From a virus: 64,000 bases of DNA. The translations under genes and the position numbers were made by a program. The stretch is from positions 42,602 to 106,601 of the IMG/VR virus record IMGVR_UViG_3300023192_003818, one strand, 5' to 3'. Positions 5,386 through 63,781 of the stretch are shown one piece after another. Each line of letters opens with the position of its first letter. The first letter of the stretch is position 1. The notes beneath the pieces were generated by a model that was given only the letters and a program-made list of their open reading frames with translations, did no database searches and was not told where the DNA came from.

Positions 5386-5400
5386 AAGACCTTTATTTAT

Positions 5401-5477
5401 TTTAATTATACCGTCAATATACGAAGGCTCCCTTAGGGAGCCTAGCCTCTTCGCATAAATCTTTAATTTATTTTATA
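5401..5477 (-). promoter_or_regulatory. promoter stem-loop cassette C1
   Basis: On the minus strand: TAGG, a perfect hairpin GGCTCCC TAA GGGAGCC, then CGTATATTGACG and ATAAAGG before the gene at 5385. The hairpin fills the spacer between the putative -33 and -7 boxes. The cassette overlaps the last codons of the preceding 54-residue gene and is about 93% identical to cassette C2. Confidence 0.7.
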
Positions 5478-5637
5478 AATCCAAATTAACTTCCAGTTGA
5501 CTAATCATATCTACACATTTTATGCAAATGAGTTTTGAATCATGATTACAATACTCGGAAAAAGATTTTTTATCTTCCGTATACTTCTCATTAACTGTTT
5601 TCATACAACATCCGCATACTATATATTTTGTTTTCAT
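5473..5637 (-). CDS. 54-residue zinc-binding protein
   Basis: Cysteines in CGCC near the start and CNHD, CIKC further on give a plausible zinc knuckle or ribbon (Cys at 8, 10, 11, 30, 38, 41). It is bracketed by two nearly identical 77-bp cassettes, and its final codons are part of the downstream copy, so the gene looks like a transferable unit. Function unknown. Confidence 0.6.
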   Translation of the reverse strand: MKTKYIVCGCCMKTVNEKYTEDKKSFSEYCNHDSKLICIKCVDMISQLEVNLDL

Positions 5638-5642
5638 TTTAT

Positions 5643-5719
5643 TTTAATTATACCGTCAATATACGAAGGGTATCTTGGGTAGCCTAGCCTCTTCGCATAA
5701 ATCTTTAATTTATTTTATA
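5643..5719 (-). promoter_or_regulatory. promoter stem-loop cassette C2
   Basis: Same layout as C1 and matching it over 77 bases except in the stem, where the arms no longer pair well. Its upstream end encodes the last residues and stop of the gene at 5705. It drives the 54-residue zinc protein. Confidence 0.65.
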
Positions 5720-6181
5720 AGCACTATAAACACTTCGGGTTAATCTTATTGAATCCCTTGGATCTCCCATTATCTCTCCATCCACTATTGCAAAGGCATG
5801 CCCTTTAACTGTAATAAGATAATTACCCTCAGAAAATATTTTAATAAAATCTTTAACTTTATAAGAAACTTGTATTTTACGTTTACATTTACAAAACTTT
5901 TTCTTTTTCTCACTCCAAATCGTAATTTTACTATTTTGTGTGCGTGTTAATACTTTAGTACCATAATTTCCCTTTTTACCTAATTGTTTAATTTTTTTAC
6001 CAAATGCTTGTTGAATGTGAGGTAAACGAAGTTGAATCCATGTCCCACAATATTTTTCCCTATTTAATTTAATTCTACAAAAATTATGTGCCTTATTATA
6101 ATTTACACCAAAAGCTGCCGATACAGCTCTAACTACACAATCATTTGTTTCTCCCTCTTTTAAATAATCATTTTCTGACAT
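5705..6181 (-). CDS. putative papain-like cysteine peptidase
   Basis: 158 residues. The N-terminal TNDCVVRAVSAAF segment resembles the catalytic-Cys helix of papain/NlpC-type folds, and GHAFAIVDGEIMGD near residue 128 supplies the His and a following Asp. A basic Lys/Cys-rich stretch lies between. Similar proteins occur in many large phages without assigned role; peptidase or amidase activity is inferred from the Cys-His-Asp arrangement only. Its own promoter cassette lies just upstream. Confidence 0.5.
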   Translation of the reverse strand: MSENDYLKEGETNDCVVRAVSAAFGVNYNKAHNFCRIKLNREKYCGTWIQLRLPHIQQAFGKKIKQLGKKGNYGTKVLTRTQNSKITIWSEKKKKFCKCKRKIQVSYKVKDFIKIFSEGNYLITVKGHAFAIVDGEIMGDPRDSIRLTRSVYSAYKIN

Positions 6182-12656: not shown

Positions 12657-12675
12657 AATATTTGTTTTAACTAAT

Positions 12676-12747
12676 TACTTATACGTGAATATACGAAGGC
12701 TCCCTCAGGGAGCCTAGTTTCTTCGCATAAGTCTTTAAAATATTTTA
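12676..12747 (-). promoter_or_regulatory. promoter stem-loop cassette C3
   Basis: Perfect GGCTCCC TGA GGGAGCC hairpin (12698-12714) between CTAGG and CGTATATTCACG on the minus strand. It starts inside the end of the 58-residue gene, as in C1 and C2. Confidence 0.7.
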
Positions 12748-32709: not shown

Positions 32710-33594
32710 TTATATTTCATAGATTTCAAAAACATCTATATGAGGGTTTAAGTTAAATTCCCACCCTATATCTTCCATGAATCCTTCTAATTTATTTAAT
32801 AATATACTCTCAAATACTTTTTTTCTATTAGCATATTTTTCAATAAAATCATTAATTTTATCAGGAATTTTATTAGATATATAGGCTATTGATTCTACTT
32901 TGTAAGGATTATCATTTAAATAAATCCATTTAATCTTATCTGATGATGTAATATACGAATTTTGTTTATCTAATCCCCAAAATTTTAATAAATCATTGTA
33001 TCTTATTGCTGCTTTAACGGAAGCTGATGCTTTTTTCTCAATATTAGTAAATATTTCTCCTGCTCTAGGTTTTCTGCCAGTATATTTTTTGAGTGTTTTA
33101 ACTGATGTTGGGTTACCTAATTGTGTTAAAGGAATTTCACCCTTTATTATAGATTTTTTAAATACTTTAATTTGACTTATAATCACTTCTTTTTCAACTC
33201 CTTTTAATACTTGTTTTAATATTTTTTCAAAAAATTTACCAAATACTGGGGGAAAATTAGATTTTTTAAATTCTAATCCTTTAATGTCAACAAAATCTTT
33301 TTTAATAATACCATCTTGTTTAGTAATCCATTGAGCATATCTTCTAGTTTTTCTAAAATAAGCCGAACGGATAACACATTCAGTTTTCATTTCTAATTTA
33401 TGTGAATCAAGATTAAAACATTCTTTTGCTAATCTATCATAATCTTTAGTTATAATATCTTGGTATTGTAAAGCAACATTTTCTAATACTTCATCTTTTT
33501 TTTTCTCACTAAAATTATCAAAATCTTTATATAAAAACTTTAATAAGGGTTCAGCATGAATATAGACTGAGTCGGTATCACTAACAATAGGCAA
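32710..33594 (-). CDS. family B DNA polymerase, C-terminal fragment
   Basis: 294 residues starting at a TTG directly before catalytic motif C (IVSDTDSVYIHAE). Further on DGIIKKDFVDIKGLEF matches the T4 gp43 segment after the palm, then the thumb. The N-terminal fragment is at 34925-36682; together they total 879 residues, close to T4 gp43 (898). Upstream of the TTG is an in-frame TAG, so expression needs an internal start, splicing or frameshifting. Bases 33250-33312 recur in the baseplate hub gene. Confidence 0.9.
   Translation of the reverse strand: MPIVSDTDSVYIHAEPLLKFLYKDFDNFSEKKKDEVLENVALQYQDIITKDYDRLAKECFNLDSHKLEMKTECVIRSAYFRKTRRYAQWITKQDGIIKKDFVDIKGLEFKKSNFPPVFGKFFEKILKQVLKGVEKEVIISQIKVFKKSIIKGEIPLTQLGNPTSVKTLKKYTGRKPRAGEIFTNIEKKASASVKAAIRYNDLLKFWGLDKQNSYITSSDKIKWIYLNDNPYKVESIAYISNKIPDKINDFIEKYANRKKVFESILLNKLEGFMEDIGWEFNLNPHIDVFEIYEI
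33250..33312 (-). repeat. 63-bp repeat in polymerase C-fragment
   Basis: Native polymerase coding sequence (KDFVDIKGLEFKKSNFP). Matches 62507-62569 at 62 of 63 bases. Confidence 0.95.
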
Positions 33595-33652
33595 CGAAAT
33601 TTTCGTCGCCTACTTTACATATAAATTCAGGAGTATCTTCCAGGTGTTTCAT
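33581..33652 (-). other. out-of-frame polymerase-like segment before motif C
   Basis: From ATG at 33652 the frame encodes MKHLEDTPEFICKVGDENF then VAYC and a stop. ENFVAY followed by SDTDS would mimic FVLYGDTDS of T4 gp43, but four extra bases (TGTT) separate the frames. A hairpin (33590-33610) lies inside. It may be the original upstream strand of motif C. Confidence 0.5.
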
Positions 33653-34037
33653 AAATTATTTTATTACTTTTATTTCTATTTCCAATATATCCAACTTCGT
33701 CTGTATTCTTTTTATCTTCTAATTTAGATTTATCCCAACCTCTTAATTCATAGTATTTTTCTTTAGGTTCACCAGTCCACCCATTTATTCCTTTCTTTGG
33801 CAAATAAAACAGGTGAATATAAATAGCAGGAAATCCGGATATTACCATTAATATCATGGCTATAGTTCGGTTAAACAAAGCTGAAGCTCCAACTATAATA
33901 ACTAAAATCAATATAAATTTACCAATTTTTCTAATTTTAGGTGTGTGCTCTTCAAAGTGTCCAAATAGTATGTTTCCTATTGAATAAATGATACTTACAA
34001 TAGCAATTTCAAACCAAAACGATTCAATTGACCACAT
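33627..34037 (-). CDS. membrane protein inside the polymerase split
   Basis: 136 residues with an aromatic start (MWSIESFWFEIAIVSIIY), three or four hydrophobic segments up to residue 90 and a charged C-terminal tail. It lies between the two polymerase fragments and its end overlaps the polymerase-like segment. Not recognised. Confidence 0.6.
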   Translation of the reverse strand: MWSIESFWFEIAIVSIIYSIGNILFGHFEEHTPKIRKIGKFILILVIIVGASALFNRTIAMILMVISGFPAIYIHLFYLPKKGINGWTGEPKEKYYELRGWDKSKLEDKKNTDEVGYIGNRNKSNKIIYETPGRYS

Positions 34038-34042
34038 TTTTT

Positions 34043-34351
34043 TTATAATTTTTTCTTACTTAATTCTTCATTATCATAATATTTTATGAATAATTCATAT
34101 CCATCTTCCTCACATTTATTACAAGAATAACCTTTACTTACTGTATTTAATGCTTGGTCATAAACGTATAAATTTTCTAATTCTTCATTTTCTTCAGGAG
34201 TAAATTCAGTAGGATCTTTTTCTAAATTTTTAAACCAATCTTTTCTTCCCCATTTATCGATTAATATTTCCATTTTTTCTTGGGGGAAAATCATTGGTAA
34301 AAAGAGCCATTCATTATCTGTATTTTGTTCACAAAATTGACATTTATTCAT
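34043..34351 (-). CDS. CxxC protein, paralogue 1
   Basis: 102 residues. CQFC at the start and CNKC near the end flank an acidic helical body with YVYDQALNTVSKGYSC. This matches the neighbour at 34434 (YFYDQLLNTVGPSWEC), so they are paralogues. The four Cys probably bind one zinc. Function unknown. Confidence 0.6.
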   Translation of the reverse strand: MNKCQFCEQNTDNEWLFLPMIFPQEKMEILIDKWGRKDWFKNLEKDPTEFTPEENEELENLYVYDQALNTVSKGYSCNKCEEDGYELFIKYYDNEELSKKKL

Positions 34352-34433
34352 TTTTTATATATTTTTAATTTCACAATTCATATTATTCATCTTATTTCTC
34401 TCTTTTTTCTTATATTGAGGTACATATTTTTCT

Positions 34434-34826
34434 TTATTTAATTATACAATCTCTACACTCCCAACTTGGACCAACTGTATTTAAAAGTTGGTCATAAAAG
34501 TAAGCATTATCAACTTTTTTAGCTCCAAATTTTTCTTCTAATTTAGTTTGGATTTCTTCACTCCAATTATTATTATTATTTTTCATTAAAACATCTTGAT
34601 AATCTAAAATTTTATTTAATTCTTTATCTTTCATTCCAATATATTCACAGGCATCTATTCTTTCTTCAATCATTGCTCTAAAAATTTTAACTAATTTTTG
34701 CCCTTCAAAATTACCAACTAAAGGGTCTCCTTCTTTGCCAAAAGGTTTTAAATCATTAATATGAACTTGACATCTTTCACATTTTCTATCTGTTGGGGGT
34801 GGGTTAATATAAATTTTTTTAGTCAT
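34434..34826 (-). CDS. CxxC protein, paralogue 2
   Basis: 130 residues. CERC near residue 15 and CRDC near the end, with the shared YDQxLNTVxxxxxC block. Larger than its paralogue by an insert in the middle. Located in the 1.3-kb interruption of the polymerase gene. Confidence 0.6.
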   Translation of the reverse strand: MTKKIYINPPPTDRKCERCQVHINDLKPFGKEGDPLVGNFEGQKLVKIFRAMIEERIDACEYIGMKDKELNKILDYQDVLMKNNNNNWSEEIQTKLEEKFGAKKVDNAYFYDQLLNTVGPSWECRDCIIK

Positions 34827-34838
34827 AACTTATTTATT

Positions 34839-34925
34839 TTAAGGTTTTATAAAATTTTGTAAATTTCCAAATTTGAGTCCATACCCCACATTTTTCATTA
34901 AATCTTTTTTATTTAAATCCCCCAT
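34839..34925 (-). CDS. small peptide at the polymerase fragment end, 28 aa
   Basis: ATG overlaps the stop of the polymerase N-terminal fragment (TAATG). Reads MGDLNKKDLMKNVGYGLKF and ends IKP. Could be a real peptide or debris from the insertion. Confidence 0.35.
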   Translation of the reverse strand: MGDLNKKDLMKNVGYGLKFGNLQNFIKP

Positions 34926-36682
34926 TATATATTTAATTTTACTTTACCTTCACAGGGTAGAGATTTCATAAATTCTTCCTTAAATTTGGGGTCTTTCATA
35001 ATTTTATTTATGTGATTATTTGCACATAATGCACTTTGTTGAATTATAGACCACCCTGTCAATGTAATGGCTTCACTTAATATAGCTTTATTTTTTCCAT
35101 ATCTAAATGAAGGCAAAGAACTTGCCCCATACAAACTATTTAGTAAAATTTTAAATGAGTTTTGAATCATAAAATAATGATCTCCTTTTTCCTCATCTCC
35201 TGCTTTATAAGCTTCTTTCATTAGTCTTTTATATTCAACTCTTTCGTTAAACCATTCTTCTAAAACTATAGCCATTACTGATTTCTTATCGGTTCTAAAC
35301 ATAACTCCATTTGCAGATATTGATAATTTTTTACCTATAATAAATTTTATTAGACTAGAAACTTTCATTTTTACTCTTTTGTTTTGGTCGCTATTTTCAA
35401 TAACTAATTCCTCATCAGGGTCTCTCTCTTTTAAATCATTAAGCCCCAATCTATTATTACGGTCATTATCATCAATAATCCTAGCTACTAATGTTTCTCT
35501 TCCTATATTAAGAGAAATAATAATAAAAGGATATTGAGATGTTAAATCTTCATCAAACATATATTTATAAAGACCTGCTTTTGGGCAAAACAAATAACCT
35601 CCTGCATATCCTTTTTTTGATATTTGATTTCTTTCTCTTGCAGGAGGAATTATTCCTTGAGATAATAAATAAGCTGAAATAGCTCCATCATGTGTTTTAC
35701 TACTTGCATAAACTTCACTATAATTATGTTTTCCTTTATGAGATATATTAATTGTTAAGTCTATATATTGTAATTTTTCATCCAATTTTTTTAATATTTC
35801 AACATCAATAAAATTATAATTAATAAATTTATGTATATCTTCTTTAAATAAATCATCAAGATTTCCATCATATTCAATTTTACCTAATCCTGCATATTTT
35901 TTACCAATAGCATCTAAGGTATAGCTTGGTTCATCTCTCCAATAATATTTTTTATGTAATCTATAATAATCTAAAGATTCAACCCCTGCGATTTGAACAT
36001 AAGTGTCCTTATTGAACCACCAATCATTATTTTTTTTACATTTAACTATCCCAATTGGGGATAACATATTTGCCCAATCTTCTCCTAATACATTACAAAT
36101 TCTATAATATAGGTAAGGTATATCAAAAAAACAACCATTATAAGTAACTAAAATGTCAGGATCAATCTCTCTAAATCTTTCAATAAATTTTGATAATAAT
36201 TCTTCTTCATCTTTACAAGGTATAATCTCTTTATTTTTAAATTTGGTATATTTTAAATTTAATTGCGTATCCAAAACCAAAATCCCCCATTTATCAAGTT
36301 GTTTATCCCACCATGCAATTGAAGTAATTTTTTTAGGGGCATTAGATATTTCAACTTCTGTAATCTCCTCTAGCATTTCACACTCAATATCAAAAAATAA
36401 TATTCTATGTGTAGTAGAAGGGGTACTATCTATCCCATATCTTTCAATTAGAAATTTCTGATATGGAGCCATATCATGAAAATGTAATAAAGGATTTTGT
36501 TTATCCCATTTCCATATCTTTTTTAAATTTTCATCTTTAAACCCTTTAAATTCAGATTCTGAAGGAGAACATTCAATATAAGCTTGATTATACCAAGTTA
36601 TTTTTTTATAACTTTTATCAGTCCAAAGATGAATATTGAATTTATTCTTACCTATTTGTTCGGCAAAACATTTAATATACAA
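34925..36682 (-). CDS. family B DNA polymerase, N-terminal fragment
   Basis: 585 residues. Exonuclease motifs FFDIECE (about 97) and YNGCFFDIPYL (about 180), palm motif A FDEDLTSQYPFI, and motif B KILLNSLYGASS. It ends EEFMKSLPCEGKVKLNI just before where motif C should appear; that motif starts the fragment at 33594. Both halves keep intact frames, so the polymerase is probably still used as two chains or after splicing. T4-like phages with gp43 split into two proteins are known. Confidence 0.92.
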   Translation of the reverse strand: MYIKCFAEQIGKNKFNIHLWTDKSYKKITWYNQAYIECSPSESEFKGFKDENLKKIWKWDKQNPLLHFHDMAPYQKFLIERYGIDSTPSTTHRILFFDIECEMLEEITEVEISNAPKKITSIAWWDKQLDKWGILVLDTQLNLKYTKFKNKEIIPCKDEEELLSKFIERFREIDPDILVTYNGCFFDIPYLYYRICNVLGEDWANMLSPIGIVKCKKNNDWWFNKDTYVQIAGVESLDYYRLHKKYYWRDEPSYTLDAIGKKYAGLGKIEYDGNLDDLFKEDIHKFINYNFIDVEILKKLDEKLQYIDLTINISHKGKHNYSEVYASSKTHDGAISAYLLSQGIIPPARERNQISKKGYAGGYLFCPKAGLYKYMFDEDLTSQYPFIIISLNIGRETLVARIIDDNDRNNRLGLNDLKERDPDEELVIENSDQNKRVKMKVSSLIKFIIGKKLSISANGVMFRTDKKSVMAIVLEEWFNERVEYKRLMKEAYKAGDEEKGDHYFMIQNSFKILLNSLYGASSLPSFRYGKNKAILSEAITLTGWSIIQQSALCANNHINKIMKDPKFKEEFMKSLPCEGKVKLNI

Positions 36683-47611: not shown

Positions 47612-47730
47612 AGACTTTTATTTTTTGTTATTGGTACTTTAGGGTATTTATAAAAATTCCAAAGAGTTTATTCTTTTAATTAATATTTTAAATTTTGTAT
47701 TTCTTTTTAATCCCCCCCATAACCTTTATT

Positions 47731-47805
47731 TAATTATTATACCGTGAATATACGAAGGCTTCCTGTGGAAACCTAGTTTTTTAGCATAAATTTTTAATTT
47801 ACTTT
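47731..47805 (-). promoter_or_regulatory. promoter stem-loop cassette C4
   Basis: Minus strand AACTAGG, stem GGTTTCC ACA GGAAGCC with a changed but largely pairing stem, then CGTATATTCACGGTATAAT and AAATAAAGGTT. The first ATG after it opens only a ten-codon frame because of a run of seven G; the next real gene starts at 47611. Confidence 0.65.
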
Positions 47806-48335: not shown

Positions 48336-48390
48336 AATATACGAAGGCTCCTTTAGGGAGCCTAGTTTTTTGCATCAATTTTTAATATCT
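48336..48390 (-). promoter_or_regulatory. promoter stem-loop cassette C5
   Basis: Minus strand CTAGGCTCCC TAA AGGAGCC, then CGTATATTATCCC. The stem is complete except one G:T pair. It drives the metallopeptidase gene. Confidence 0.6.
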
Positions 48391-49473
48391 TTTGGTAAGT
48401 TCGTCTTCTAATTTTTTTAACCTTTGTAGTTCTTTAAGCTTACGAGCTGACCAAGTACCTTGTTTCATTTTATTTTCTAAATTAATTATTTCTTGGTGGG
48501 GGTCTGCATCTTTTATTAAAATTTTATTTGGTGATGGGAGACTTTCATCTAAATCTTCTTCATTTATATTCTTTAAATATGTAGATTTTATTTCTATCGG
48601 TGATTTTACAGGTAAATAAACCTCATCAATTTTACCCGACTTCTTTTTTATTTTATTTATGTTTAATTCTTTTTTTTTGAAATTTTGATTAAAAGCAAAA
48701 TTAGTTGCAACTACTAATGCTATTGCTAAAGGGTCAAATACAAATATAATAACAATTAATAACCAATTTATTATCTCATTCATGGGTTTATCTAATAATT
48801 CAGATAAATATTTTAAAGGCCCCAATTCTCCTGCTATTTCTGTATTATTTTGTTTTTCTAATATCTTTAATTGGTATTTTTGAAGACTATCAGAAGCTAT
48901 ACTTCTTTTGGATTGTGCTTTATTTCTGTTTTCTTCTTCAACATTTATTCTATCTCTTGCTAATCTTAATTCAATTGTTGATATTGTATTTCTTAAACCT
49001 GTAGATGATGTAGTATCTTTAACTTGTATTGATGATGCTTTTGCATTAGATAATGTAGAGATGTTGTTAGATATCCTTTCTAATTCATTTTCATATCTTA
49101 TAACATCATCAGCATAAAATTTTTCTTTTTGTTCTAAGAATTTTATTTCATTTTCATTAATGGAGAGTTTAATATATGTGTCTTGATATCCCTTACTAAG
49201 CATTCCATAGATTCCTACTGATGTGATGAGAGATAATACAATTACTGAAATTGTTAAATATAATCTAAAACCTTTATTTATTTTATTCCAATATTGATAT
49301 AATAAACTTGTGGTTACAAGTTTTGAAAGTTCTAAAAAACTAGACATTATTATTATAGCAGTAGCTACTCCAGCAAATAATTTACTTAATCCTATTATAC
49401 TGTAATATGCAGCACAACCTGCTAAACCTAAAGCACAAAAAGCTATTAAATAAGGTAAAAATTTATTTATCAT
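48382..49473 (-). CDS. multi-pass membrane protein with coiled coil
   Basis: 363 residues. Three transmembrane segments in the first 95 residues, a long coiled coil (about 100-215), a fourth hydrophobic segment (IINWLLIVIIFVFDPLAIAL) and a charged tail. This design is common in large phages near the lysis genes and resembles spanin or membrane-anchor proteins, but no family is proven. Confidence 0.6.
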   Translation of the reverse strand: MINKFLPYLIAFCALGLAGCAAYYSIIGLSKLFAGVATAIIIMSSFLELSKLVTTSLLYQYWNKINKGFRLYLTISVIVLSLITSVGIYGMLSKGYQDTYIKLSINENEIKFLEQKEKFYADDVIRYENELERISNNISTLSNAKASSIQVKDTTSSTGLRNTISTIELRLARDRINVEEENRNKAQSKRSIASDSLQKYQLKILEKQNNTEIAGELGPLKYLSELLDKPMNEIINWLLIVIIFVFDPLAIALVVATNFAFNQNFKKKELNINKIKKKSGKIDEVYLPVKSPIEIKSTYLKNINEEDLDESLPSPNKILIKDADPHQEIINLENKMKQGTWSARKLKELQRLKKLEDELTKRY

Positions 49474-58223: not shown

Positions 58224-59498
58224 TTATTTTAAATTATCATAATTTTTTCCTTTTTTTATAGTAAAAGGTAAATTATACAATGCTAAAGCATTAGAAACTT
58301 GAGTATTTATAAGGCTTTCTTCTTCAATTTTTATATCATATATAAAAGAGTCATAGTTATATAAAATTATTTTACTTTCCATTCCTCGGGTATTTTTTAT
58401 AATATAATATAAAATATTAGTAAACATGGCAATTTCAGTAGATTGAATTAAATAATTAAACAATTTATTTTTTGTTAATTGAGGGTGAGTAGTTTGAGAA
58501 AAAATATATTTACTTATAAAATTTGATACCCCTTTTTTACTATTATATTCAACCCAACTTTTTTCTATAAATTTTGAAATTTCTTTAAAAAATGGATAAT
58601 TTTTATACTTGGGATATATAAAACCATATAGTTGTTTAAACATTAAAGTTTTTGCAGTCTCTCTATCTTCTCCACAATATTTAGAAAAATCCTCATATAT
58701 GTCTTTATGTGGTAAAATATAATTTGAAAGATAAGCAGCTATATGAGGATGCATAGATATTATATCATACTCAATAAATTTATCATTCCTTGGTATAAAA
58801 GCTTCCCTACATTTGTTATTTTTATTAAGTGCGGCATAATTTACTCCTTTAAAGGAATTTGATGGTCTTGTTGTTAATGTATTAAGGTTATATTTAGTAA
58901 ATACATATTCTCCATTTATAGGGTGAAAATATTTTTCAAATTTTTCTTTATCTACTTTAATTCCATTTCTTTCAATTGAATTAAAAACCAAAGACACTTT
59001 ATTATTAAAAAATTCCACATAATCATCTAATTCTAATGTTATCTTTTCTATATCTCTTAAAATATTCTCACAATATTCATAATGTTTAACTATTGGAATA
59101 ATTATATTAATTTCAGAGTTATTTCTTAATCTATTATAAAAAATATTATGAGTTTGAGTAAGTACAGGTTTAAAAGAAGTTGGTGGAAAAACTAATGATT
59201 TTAGATTATTTAATGGAAAATAATGTAAAATTTCCTTTTTATCTCTAACATATAATGTTTCAAATCCTTTTAAAGTTATGTCTATTAACGTTTTATCTAA
59301 TGAAAAAGTTTCACTATGGTGTAGGCATAACATATAACCTTTACTCGCATCAAACGGTTTAATATACACCAAAGATACATAATTATTACATGGGTGTTCA
59401 TTAAAATTATAAGGAATTACTTCTATGAATGCTTCTTTATAACCACTATTTTTTAAAATATTTAATTGGTCTTCAGTTTCTATTAACCAATAATTCAT
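58224..59498 (-). CDS. family A DNA polymerase-like protein
   Basis: 424 residues. The C-terminal half has all palm motifs of PolA: motif A FIEYDIISMHPHIAAYL (Asp kept), motif B RETAKTLMFKQLYG with the R...K...F...YG spacing, QST before motif C, and motif C LYNYDSFIYDI in place of HDE with the Asp kept. The N-terminal 180 residues resemble a degenerate exonuclease domain without its acidic residues. The fold is complete enough to be active; the role beside a family B polymerase is unknown. Confidence 0.7.
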   Translation of the reverse strand: MNYWLIETEDQLNILKNSGYKEAFIEVIPYNFNEHPCNNYVSLVYIKPFDASKGYMLCLHHSETFSLDKTLIDITLKGFETLYVRDKKEILHYFPLNNLKSLVFPPTSFKPVLTQTHNIFYNRLRNNSEINIIIPIVKHYEYCENILRDIEKITLELDDYVEFFNNKVSLVFNSIERNGIKVDKEKFEKYFHPINGEYVFTKYNLNTLTTRPSNSFKGVNYAALNKNNKCREAFIPRNDKFIEYDIISMHPHIAAYLSNYILPHKDIYEDFSKYCGEDRETAKTLMFKQLYGFIYPKYKNYPFFKEISKFIEKSWVEYNSKKGVSNFISKYIFSQTTHPQLTKNKLFNYLIQSTEIAMFTNILYYIIKNTRGMESKIILYNYDSFIYDIKIEEESLINTQVSNALALYNLPFTIKKGKNYDNLK

Positions 59499-60541: not shown

Positions 60542-63500
60542 TTATTTAATATTTTGTATATACTCTATATTTACATTACTCTCTACTGCTTCATAAATTC
60601 CTTTTTTGTAGAAATAGTTTTTACCCTCATATCTCCAAAAGAAAGCATTATTTTTACTTTCAGGCATTCTTTCAATTACCCCTAAAGCATGGATTGAGGT
60701 TGGTTTACCTGATAAAAAATCTGTTCTAGAACCAACAAACCTAGCAGCTTCTTTTTTATACTCATCATTTTTTAAAGCTTTATCACAAGATATTATGTGC
60801 TGGCGGGCTTTTAAAACTATTGCCCCTTTAAAATTAGAATATGCATGTATTGCAGTATCAATATCTATTATATTTTTCCAGTCCTTAATATTATGTTCAG
60901 TAACGGCATAGTTCCCCGATGTTAGATTTTTAAAAATACTTCCCTCGAAATACCCTGAGGTTTTTCTATTATAAATAGATTGAGCAGTATCTGCCATACC
61001 TTGTCCATGGTGAGGATAATTTTCTGCTGCACATACTGCAACTAATGCCCACCATTCTGATTCTGGTGGTGGGAAAAATCTTAGGTCTATATTCTTGTGG
61101 GGTATTGTCTGTTTTTTAGGTATTTCCAATTTTGGAATTGAGATTGTTTCTAATTCTGTAGTCCATTCATTGTTTTCTAATTTATGGTTTACTTTAATAA
61201 TAATAAATTCCATTACTTTAGGGTAATTTTGGGGTAAAAATTTAGTATTAACTTCTATTGAGTTATAAATTTTTATTCCTGAAATTCCCCTTAAAGTAAT
61301 ATTTAAAGATATAGGAATAAAACCTGTTGTTGTAGATGTAGGTAAAATTGAATGTGATGTTTTTTTAATATCTATTATACTATTTTTTAAATTATTAAAT
61401 CCTCTATTTATAAAATCTTCATCAAATTCCAAATACCTAGGCTTGTAATGCCGCTTTTCATTAAAAGCATCATCTATATATTTTATATAAGACTTTTCTC
61501 TAATCTCTTTTTGTTTCTCTTTTTCCCTTTTTAAAGTTATGACTTTTTTTCCCTTTTCCACAAAGCCATAGTTTGCATATGTTGCAAAAATCGTAGACTC
61601 AATGAAACCCAATGAGTCTTTTGGTTTATTTTTATTATGGGTTTTCAATTCTTTTCCTACCCCAGGATTTGATATATACTGGTTAAATCTATCGGTTAAT
61701 CCTCGATTCCAATGGGAAAAAGCAGTAGCTTCTTCTCCTACTATTTGACCGTTTGCCGTTGCCCCTACTGTTAACATAGTAGATAATTCTGGAGTTATTT
61801 TAGTATTAACAGAAAATTCTTTAACAAAATTAGATTGATTGGTTTCGGTATTAAAACCAAATATTTCTAAAGGTTCTGAAGGGGAAGAATCAGGGGCAAA
61901 GAATAGTTTTTTATTTGGTATATTATTTTGGTCAATTATTTTAAGAGTATTTGTATTTTCATATAATATTGCTTCTAGATTACTAATCCCTCCAAAAGCA
62001 CCATTTATGCCTTCTAAAATACTTTCAATAAATTCGTAAAATTTTAAATCATGTTTTTCGGTTATTGATCTTTTTAATATTTTATTTATAAAATCAAAAT
62101 TTAAATATATGTTCATTATTCTACCATGGGGAGAAGGTGTTGAAGAATAAAAAGAATCCATTTTATCCCCAAAAAAGTTTTTTGTATCTAAAGGAACATC
62201 AAAATAATTAGTTTTTACAATACAAATTCTTGGGTCTATAGAAAATTGATTAATATTAATACTCATTATATTTCTTTCAACCCCTGTATCTATTTTAAAT
62301 ATAGGGAAAGGTTTAATTCCCTCATTTTCAATATTTAATAAGATTTTTTCTTCTAAAAACTCTAAAAAAGTTCCCAATTTAATATAATGGCCCAGAATTA
62401 TACCTTCCCCTTTTTCGTGAATATCTTGACTTCTTGTTTTAATAACAACTTTTGTAGTTTCCTTAGATAATATTATTAATGGGTAACTTTTACCACCATT
62501 ATCCTCGGGAAAATTAGATTTTTTAAATTCTAATCCTTTAATATCAACAAAATCTTTTTTAATAATACCCAGATGGAACGTAAACCATTGAGTATAAAAA
62601 TTTTCAGGGTTTGATTCTAAATATAATAGCCAATTTGAAATATCATTATTATTTTCCTCGTCATTTTCTGTTTCGGGAGAAATAGGGTCACTTAAAATAT
62701 TTATTTTTAAAGATTCAATAACATCTCCAATGCTTACTAAATTTAAAGTTATATCATAAGAACCATCAGTATTAAAATTCCAATCAAAATTTATAACTCT
62801 ACCAATAAAACCCCCATAATTTCCTTTATATGTACTCCTTAAATTTTCTAATTTTTCTAAAACACTATAAAAATTTTGACCTGTTGTTGAAAACCACTCA
62901 TTTTCAATAAAAGTGTTTCCCATATCTTCATATATAATTTTCCCATCAAATTGAGATTGGGCTGGGTATTTTGATTCCCCCCATTCTAAAATCATAGTAA
63001 AACCTAACCTTATATATAAAAGTTCTATTAACTCAAATTGAAATCTATTATGAGCTCTAATTCTAACGGTTGCTTTTCTAATAGAACCTCTATTTAAATG
63101 TTCTACATTTAAAGAAGTAATACCGGGCATAGGGTTAATTCCAAATTCCTTCCCTCCTAAACCATAAGCTGCCCCTTCATTCCATATTTCGTTTGATTTA
63201 GTTATTCCTTTTCTTATTATATTATTATTATCTAAAAAGGAATTATCAATAGGGGTTTTGGTTATAGATTTTGGTAAAGGGAAGAATTTAGTATTTCCTC
63301 CACTTCCATCCAATCCTCCAAAAGATGGATCAACGGGGGGATAGGTAAGTGTTTGAGTAGTTGGTGTCCCCGCTTTAGAAAGGAAATTTTCTAGTATTAA
63401 ACCTCCAAATAATATGGATTTTTCGGCTAATAAAGTTCCTACAAATTGGTCAGTTGCTAATCCTATTTTTCTTAATTTATCTTCCCCTGAATAATAAATA

Positions 63501-63781
63501 TCATTATCTATTTTATTTGTAACATTATGTAATTGAATTGCAGAATATGAATGGAGTTGATTAGAATTTAAATCATTAATTGAACCTGTAGGAGATGAAA
63601 TAGGGTTAATAGAAACGGATGATGCCATTTTTATCCATGCACTATTCCCATTAATATATTGTAAATCTTCTGATGTTAGTAAAGTAGAACCTTCACCTCT
63701 CCCATATATTTCTTGCCTTAGAGAAATTTGTTCCTTTACATAATCATCAAAAGGTTCTCCTATAATATTTCCGTCTTTCAT
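60542..63781 (-). CDS. baseplate hub-like protein with C-terminal wall hydrolase domain
   Basis: 1079 residues. The first part (GITSLNVEHLNRGSIRKATV, then FQFELIELLYIRLGFTMILE) resembles gp27-like tail hub domains. The C-terminus (WWALVAVCAAENYPHHGQGM, then AQSIYNRKTSGYF) is a SleB/CwlJ-type cell wall hydrolase with its catalytic Glu. Such a protein would digest peptidoglycan during injection. Residues about 405-425 repeat a polymerase segment (see repeats). Confidence 0.7.
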   Translation of the reverse strand: MKDGNIIGEPFDDYVKEQISLRQEIYGRGEGSTLLTSEDLQYINGNSAWIKMASSVSINPISSPTGSINDLNSNQLHSYSAIQLHNVTNKIDNDIYYSGEDKLRKIGLATDQFVGTLLAEKSILFGGLILENFLSKAGTPTTQTLTYPPVDPSFGGLDGSGGNTKFFPLPKSITKTPIDNSFLDNNNIIRKGITKSNEIWNEGAAYGLGGKEFGINPMPGITSLNVEHLNRGSIRKATVRIRAHNRFQFELIELLYIRLGFTMILEWGESKYPAQSQFDGKIIYEDMGNTFIENEWFSTTGQNFYSVLEKLENLRSTYKGNYGGFIGRVINFDWNFNTDGSYDITLNLVSIGDVIESLKINILSDPISPETENDEENNNDISNWLLYLESNPENFYTQWFTFHLGIIKKDFVDIKGLEFKKSNFPEDNGGKSYPLIILSKETTKVVIKTRSQDIHEKGEGIILGHYIKLGTFLEFLEEKILLNIENEGIKPFPIFKIDTGVERNIMSININQFSIDPRICIVKTNYFDVPLDTKNFFGDKMDSFYSSTPSPHGRIMNIYLNFDFINKILKRSITEKHDLKFYEFIESILEGINGAFGGISNLEAILYENTNTLKIIDQNNIPNKKLFFAPDSSPSEPLEIFGFNTETNQSNFVKEFSVNTKITPELSTMLTVGATANGQIVGEEATAFSHWNRGLTDRFNQYISNPGVGKELKTHNKNKPKDSLGFIESTIFATYANYGFVEKGKKVITLKREKEKQKEIREKSYIKYIDDAFNEKRHYKPRYLEFDEDFINRGFNNLKNSIIDIKKTSHSILPTSTTTGFIPISLNITLRGISGIKIYNSIEVNTKFLPQNYPKVMEFIIIKVNHKLENNEWTTELETISIPKLEIPKKQTIPHKNIDLRFFPPPESEWWALVAVCAAENYPHHGQGMADTAQSIYNRKTSGYFEGSIFKNLTSGNYAVTEHNIKDWKNIIDIDTAIHAYSNFKGAIVLKARQHIISCDKALKNDEYKKEAARFVGSRTDFLSGKPTSIHALGVIERMPESKNNAFFWRYEGKNYFYKKGIYEAVESNVNIEYIQNIK
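62507..62569 (-). repeat. 63-bp repeat inside the hub gene
   Basis: The polymerase segment appears in frame in the hub gene with one synonymous change. Flanking words CTCAATGG and TTTACCA also align at nearly the same offsets, so the copied tract may be longer with altered patches. Confidence 0.95.

Follow-up and report, generated by a model that had tools for sequence, protein, structure and literature searches.

Family B DNA polymerases (PolB) need not be single proteins, and in archaeal Methanothermobacter the enzyme naturally consists of two polypeptides. The same holds for the T4-type polymerase of Aeromonas phage 25, the two chains of which co-purify and are active (PMC2988022), and nothing closer to the arrangement described here was found in the literature on gp43A/gp43B and on split marine phage polymerases. 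Natural translational bypassing has a sole textbook case in bacteria, gene 60 of phage T4; shorter counterparts are presumed to exist, and further cases in T4-related phages would be of interest (PMC5009743, PMC3014915). Bypassing may resume in any frame and with a stop codon in the A site, and both a 5' stem-loop that pushes the ribosome and stop-hops of +5 and +6 have been documented (PMC5009743). Here we describe a locus at which a split polymerase and a bypass may be combined. A 64-kb stretch (the window) of the 106.6-kb IMG/VR virus record IMGVR_UViG_3300023192_003818 encodes a T4-type, gp43-like family B polymerase as two open reading frames (ORFs), and the gene for the second chain (the C gene) is interrupted within catalytic motif C by a stop codon and a change of frame. 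Based on comparison with related genomes, we suggest, with a probability of about 0.6, that the second chain of this polymerase needs a short, hairpin-driven translational stop-hop, similar to that of T4 gene 60.

Stop codons and predicted hairpins at motif C

The elements of the locus lie on the minus strand of the window. The N-chain gene (34925-36682; TTG start, 585 residues) ends in EGKVKLNI* and encodes the exonuclease, palm motif A, the fingers and the KxxxNSLYG motif B, with profile matches to positions 11-568 of PHROG_262 (E 5e-104) and to PF03104 and PF00136, both above cut-off. The C-chain gene (32710-33652) runs in two phases, from ATG 33652 to a TAG and from GAT 33579 to the stop at 32710, and its product holds motif C (DTDSVY), the remaining palm and the thumb, covering PHROG_262 positions 575-842. 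The exonuclease motifs and motifs A, B and C are colinear over the two chains, which places the enzyme among the T4-type family B (gp43) polymerases, and by profile match the best relative of solved structure is, for N and C chains alike, RB69 gp43. The original prediction, which listed the C ORF as 32710-33594, was right in placing the split near motif C.

At the junction, ATG 33652 opens a zero-frame segment, MKHLEDTPEFICKVGDENFVAYC (33581-33652), that is closed by TAG at 33581-33583 directly after a TGT codon, and DTDSVY continues in another frame. The segment aligns gap-free with the in-frame C-gene start of relatives, which confirms the second, out-of-frame strand proposed previously. Because three relatives read YCDTDS, the simplest description of the junction is YC followed by TAGT and DTDS, so that the four-base frame break of the original prediction becomes a 4-nt insertion (33580-33583) relative to YCDTDS, YVDTDS or YSDTDS relatives. 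Placement of the insert as TGTT would be equivalent. Alignment puts the first Asp of the catalytic DTDS at GAT 33577-33579. A second assembly of the window phage (L002/L005), 99.96% identical over 14.2 kb with six single-nucleotide differences, carries the same break, which is therefore not a random sequencing error.

Relatives were collected by protein-based scans of viral contigs (IMG/VR) and genome contigs, which yielded several hundred, reduced to 207 distinct junctions. DTDS is uninterrupted at 203 of the 206 junctions examined, and a stop-bearing insert is present only in the window phage (TGT-TAGT-GAT), in L123 (ACG-TGACA-GAC, that is, VAYSDT + TGACA + DSIY) and in L176 (ACA-TGATCT-GAT, that is, VAYSDT + TGATCT + DSIY); a fourth oddity, LR756508 (L164), bears an intein at D^TDS. 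In all three interrupted genes, the stop follows directly upon the putative take-off codon and lies within nucleotides absent from homologues, as in T4 gene 60. Among polymerases, a scan of IMG/VR for the VAYSDT-TGA pattern of motif C returned L123 and L176 only.

Each of the three inserts is accompanied by a strong predicted hairpin. In the window phage, folding gives a 13-bp RNA hairpin (33586-33614; -17.4 kcal/mol, z -6.1), the last paired base of which is the first base of the TGT before the stop, and which is among the three strongest distinct sites of the 64-kb window. A perfect hairpin had been predicted at 33590-33610; this core stands as minus-strand RNA only and contains one G.U pair, the full stem being longer. 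When the 206 junctions were scanned for hairpins blind to the inserts, L123 (-21.1) ranked first, L176 (-19.8) second and the window phage (-17.4) third, followed by the next junction at -10.0, with a family-wide mean of -5.7 (sd 2.3). The three strongest hairpins are exactly those of the three insert genomes, a coincidence expected by chance about once in 1.4 million, or about once in 20,000 with L123 and L176 counted once. Separate folding gave -26.0 kcal/mol for L123, -22.9 kcal/mol for L176 and -17.4 kcal/mol for the window phage, and 0 of 200 shuffles were as stable. The stem ends at the first base of the codon before the stop in all three genomes, and the stem of the window phage is unrelated in sequence to that of L123 and L176.

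When the codons of these stems were replaced by synonyms at each genome's own usage, none of 4000 recodings matched the observed stability in the window phage, L123 or L176, as against 428 in L121, a relative of L123 that lacks the insert. L121, L123 and L176, of which the last two are sisters, form a clade in the C-chain tree (support 0.944) and are the only family members with the left arm TCCGAGTAC (peptide CPST). L121 and L123 are 99.3% identical over 8.7 kb, but their V-A-Y-S-D codons at motif C, all five of them within 13 bp, differ at the third base. Given the left arm, no other of the 384 synonymous combinations is as stable as the V-A-Y-S-D codons of L123, whereas those of L121 rank 303. 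The simplest history is that the element was ancestral to L121, L123 and L176 and was recently lost from L121, leaving the left arm as a scar; alternatively, L123 may have gained it recently.

A candidate stop-hop and its alternatives

A hop is the probable meaning of what the genomes contain: an insert, a stop codon, a predicted hairpin, a fixed geometry and conservation. The 5' end of the C gene would have gained a stop-first insert in the catalytic motif independently in the window phage and in the L123/L176 lineage, together with a strong hairpin of synonymous codons ending at the codon before the stop. In the window phage, the ribosome would stall when TGT occupies the P site and TAG the A site; the hairpin would re-form behind it, driving it 4 nt forward. 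The peptidyl-tRNA would then re-pair near AGT and translation resume at GAT, to give the product FVAYC-DTDSVY, which is the natural motif of the family. An equivalent hop of 5 nt, from ACG to ACA, would yield VAYSDT-DSIY in L123, and one of 6 nt would serve L176. Since the inserts measure 4, 5 and 6 nt, no common +1 or -1 frameshift can account for them, and programmed frameshifting was rejected as the shared mechanism, the L176 insert being in frame. Reassignment of TGA was likewise rejected, because the stop of the window phage is TAG and L123 is out of frame. Recoding, one of the options raised in the original prediction, is the best reading of the frame break, taken separately from the split.

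Several observations weigh against a hop. The match between take-off and landing codons is good only in L123 (ACG/ACA, Thr/Thr); it extends to two of three bases in the window phage (TGT/AGT) and is poor in L176 (ACA/TCT). Perfect codon matches exist at +10, +11 and +12 nt (GTT/GTT, GAC/GAC and GAT/GAT), where landing would remove two motif residues. A signal in the nascent peptide was not identified, none having been tested for, and only 23-25 residues precede the stop. With uniform codon usage, 50 of 4000 recodings match the stem of the window phage, compared with none for L123 and one for L176. In addition, the case is confined to two lineages and three genomes, and one of these, L176, is represented by one contig, in which the interrupted gene also contains an N.

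The strongest alternative, which we nevertheless consider unlikely, is that the gene has been inactivated by mutation at the frame break, or that the hairpin has induced an error of replication or assembly in minority genomes, so that no C chain is produced or the consensus is wrong there. Strong quasi-palindromes cause template-switch insertions, near-identical relatives of L123 lack the insert, and a PolA-like ORF (58224-59498) might partly substitute for the lost enzyme. However, both assemblies of the window phage agree on the break, and all sense codons before and after it are retained. The choice of synonymous codons is optimal for the hairpin on a global scale, and the palindrome is perfect except where the Ala codon and the frame demand otherwise, a pattern that speaks for selection and against the copying of a template. 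The idea that the L123 patch was templated from elsewhere was rejected, the only match being an inverted one of 11 nt to its own left arm. The stems of L123 and L176 differ at two positions, both changes from G-C to G.U that keep the pairing. Moreover, these two genes are anciently diverged downstream of the stop, with a synonymous divergence (dS) of ~1.55 and a non-synonymous divergence (dN) of 0.136, and the rest of the gene has therefore been selected as protein, if the stop was present throughout; by this measure, the C gene downstream of the stop is under purifying selection. Finally, of 11 long relatives with an intact PolB, 10 keep the PolA-like gene, which is thus not a replacement for PolB.

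Less probable again is a restart, in which the C chain would begin past the stop, at TTG 33594 in the window phage and at a GTG in L123, leaving the upstream ORF as a separate peptide of 23-25 residues or as nothing at all. The window ORF MPIVSDTDSVY is indeed open from TTG 33594, and L123 has a GTG directly before TDSIY, but no Shine-Dalgarno-like sequence was seen by eye. In L176 translation could not start in frame again until codon 54, on the far side of motif C, and restart therefore cannot be general. Furthermore, all other relatives start with MK, 23 residues upstream, and restart would cost the enzyme the strand before motif C and, in L123, the first Asp as well.

As to why a stop-hop would arise in this motif, we speculate, by analogy with the T4 gene 60 insert, which may have protected against a homing nuclease (PMC5009743), that the insert and the recoded codons would destroy the target of a homing endonuclease or intein at motif C and preserve the protein. 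The inserts lie at or beside the D^TDS intein site of LR756508. The GIY-YIG and HNH ORFs of L123 and L498 belong to lineages with the hairpin-stop insert, and L176 has GIY-YIG and HNH ORFs and an intein, each located in the polymerase or at most a few kb from it. Against this idea stands the window phage itself, in whose 106.6-kb record HNH_3, GIY-YIG and LAGLIDADG_3 are absent throughout and no homing endonuclease was found.

Free-standing ORFs resembling GIY-YIG and HNH homing endonucleases lie a few kb upstream of the polymerase in L123 (2851-3333 and 4191-4844) and L498 (664-1740 and 2697-3164). The L176 intein (contig positions 1-1300; ~330 residues) sits in the exonuclease motif of the N chain (VGYN^C...HN^CDYFDIPY) and has a weak match to LAGLIDADG_3. 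Intein-like insertions occur at both motif B and motif C (D^TDS) in the polymerase of L164 (LR756508.1, 257000-270000), a phage of 484 kb.

The split across the clade and its variable spacer

The division into two genes is distinct from the frame break. The original prediction treated the two as one phenomenon, but they are different events of different age. The members of the clade, which is a large one of uncultivated T4-related phages, are all split at one place, just upstream of motif C, and a conserved in-frame C-gene start is present at 200 of the 207 distinct junctions. N chains mostly end in KLEI*, KLDI* or KLNI*, and C chains start at ATG (rarely GTG or TTG), followed by MKHLEETPWFIC and YVDTDS further on; the C-gene start of L004/L246 has diverged. 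In the C-chain tree, the split clade comprises 197 tips (support 0.946), and the unsplit polymerases of Microcystis phage Mel-JY01 (L165) and of two contigs from metagenome-assembled genomes (MAGs; L396 and L397) fall outside it. The two-chain polymerase, which had been raised as an option, is on this phylogenetic evidence secure, the split being fixed clade-wide and ordinary for the clade. No second PolB copy is present in the 106.6-kb record. A single ancestral event would have split the gp43-type polymerase between motifs B and C; the two chains would have to assemble into the enzyme, and the space between their genes would have become a site for unrelated cargo. L394 and L395 were binned with Flavobacteriales MAGs, a weak hint that the hosts may be Bacteroidota, and two distant relatives were binned with Pelagibacter or unnamed bacteria.

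The 1.3-kb gap of the window phage contains two paralogue-like ORFs with CxxC pairs (34434-34826 and 34043-34351) and a hydrophobic, probably membrane-embedded protein (33627-34037), as had been predicted, and none of the three matches a PHROG or Pfam family. The absence of an endonuclease from the gap is likewise borne out by the record-wide searches. Spacer length and cargo vary among relatives with the same split, and on this comparison the gap is one version of a variable spacer between the two polymerase genes. In 185 genomes measured, the spacer is -4 nt (an ATGA overlap) in 52, below 50 nt in 66 and above 1 kb in 28, with a maximum of 2.9 kb; one further spacer, from the separate junction comparison, reaches 4.2 kb. 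The content depends on the subclade, and roughly one relative in three has no gap. Over the relatives, the cargo amounts to 257 ORFs in 29 clusters, among which inspection revealed nucleotidyltransferase-like, cupin-like, methyltransferase-like and aminotransferase-like proteins and no recurrent endonuclease. Cargo is found in ~130 relatives, and its commonest ORF, ~90 residues long and of unknown function, accounts for a cluster of 113 ORFs; others resemble proteins of sugar metabolism or transferases.

Removal of the gap by RNA splicing, as the original prediction envisaged, or by protein trans-splicing, to give one chain, is highly improbable even though introns and inteins classically occur at motif C, one intein lying exactly at D^TDS in the huge phage LR756508: an Rfam search of the gap region at E up to 1 gave no match and no group I or II intron core, intein halves were not seen (N fragments end in KLEI* or KLNI* and C fragments begin with MKHLE), the gap is native gene content that varies by subclade and shrinks to an overlap, and a conserved ATG of its own starts the C gene. 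An 11-bp direct repeat had also been noted. Its exact minus-strand copies (33647-33657 and 34964-34974), the sole ones in the window, do flank the gap, but the repeat plays no role; a target-site duplication was rejected because both the end of the N gene and the beginning of the C gene are sequences native to relatives, most of which lack the repeat. The window N chain has an EEFMKSL tail similar to the native EEFKKSL of L121, among other relatives, and ATGAAA is the native C-gene start.

Two further polymerase-like sequences lie in the window. A 90-bp piece of the C gene (GIIKKDFVDIKGLEFKKSNFP; 33250-33339) recurs at 62507-62596, in frame and with 88% identity, within a 1079-residue ORF (60542-63781, minus strand) that has no Pfam match; this second match was rejected as an intact PolB. 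The PolA-like ORF (minus strand, 424 residues) has PolA-like palm motifs by eye and a weak match to the DNA polymerase profile PHROG_17, and is possibly a second polymerase of this phage group. Elsewhere in the window, a repeat of ~80 bp is dispersed over 5396-5478, 5638-5720, 12675-12747, 47725-47805 and 48336-48393; its copies at 5416 and 12688 bear a strong palindrome (GGCTCCCTAAGGGAGCC-like) that is more stable as a hairpin than any other site of the window.

Comparison with described systems

The candidate stop-hop shares much with T4 gene 60. There, too, the affected gene encodes the C-terminal half of an enzyme whose two half-genes are separated by others (PMC3014915), the interruption lies near the 5' end of the downstream gene and the stop directly follows the take-off codon; a stem-loop is located just upstream and translation can resume in any frame (PMC3014915, PMC5009743). 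In contrast, gene 60 encodes a topoisomerase subunit and skips 50 nt, whereas we infer hops of 4-6 nt in a polymerase, with landing codons that are not strictly matched and a hairpin that lies wholly in the 5' coding sequence. The byp elements of Magnusiomyces capitatus mitochondria differ in comprising 81 inserts that are read by mitochondrial ribosomes with an unused codon in the A site, rather than by the translation system of a bacterial-type phage with a stop codon in the A site. The inteins known as Pol-c occupy the same neighbourhood within motif C, as does that of LR756508 at D^TDS, but the inserts described here are 4-6 nt long and contain no intein sequence.

If the hop takes place, it would be the first bypass besides that of gene 60 known in T4-related phages, and would provide the first natural hops of 4, 5 and 6 nt. 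Somewhat more tentatively, at a little under even odds, we envisage a recurrent natural short-range bypass that was gained at least twice in the split polymerase motif, is efficient enough for a replicative polymerase and was probably selected as erasing a homing-endonuclease target. The three genomes, with inserts of 4, 5 and 6 nt and identically placed hairpins of two unrelated sequences, form a small testable system of 40-60 nt cassettes.

The polymerase itself resembles that of Aeromonas phages 44RR and 25, in which gene 43 is split into 43A and 43B and a T4-type PolB is likewise made as two chains. The window polymerase does not share the 43A/43B break point, however: in 44RR the fingers are interrupted and DTDS falls at about residue 107 of 43B, whereas here the split lies ~23 residues before DTDS, and the spacer carries cargo genes and no seg endonuclease. 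In this clade, a replicative polymerase has remained stably split immediately ahead of its catalytic motif, at a break point separate from the Aeromonas case, and its two-chain enzyme is a new variant of a known arrangement.

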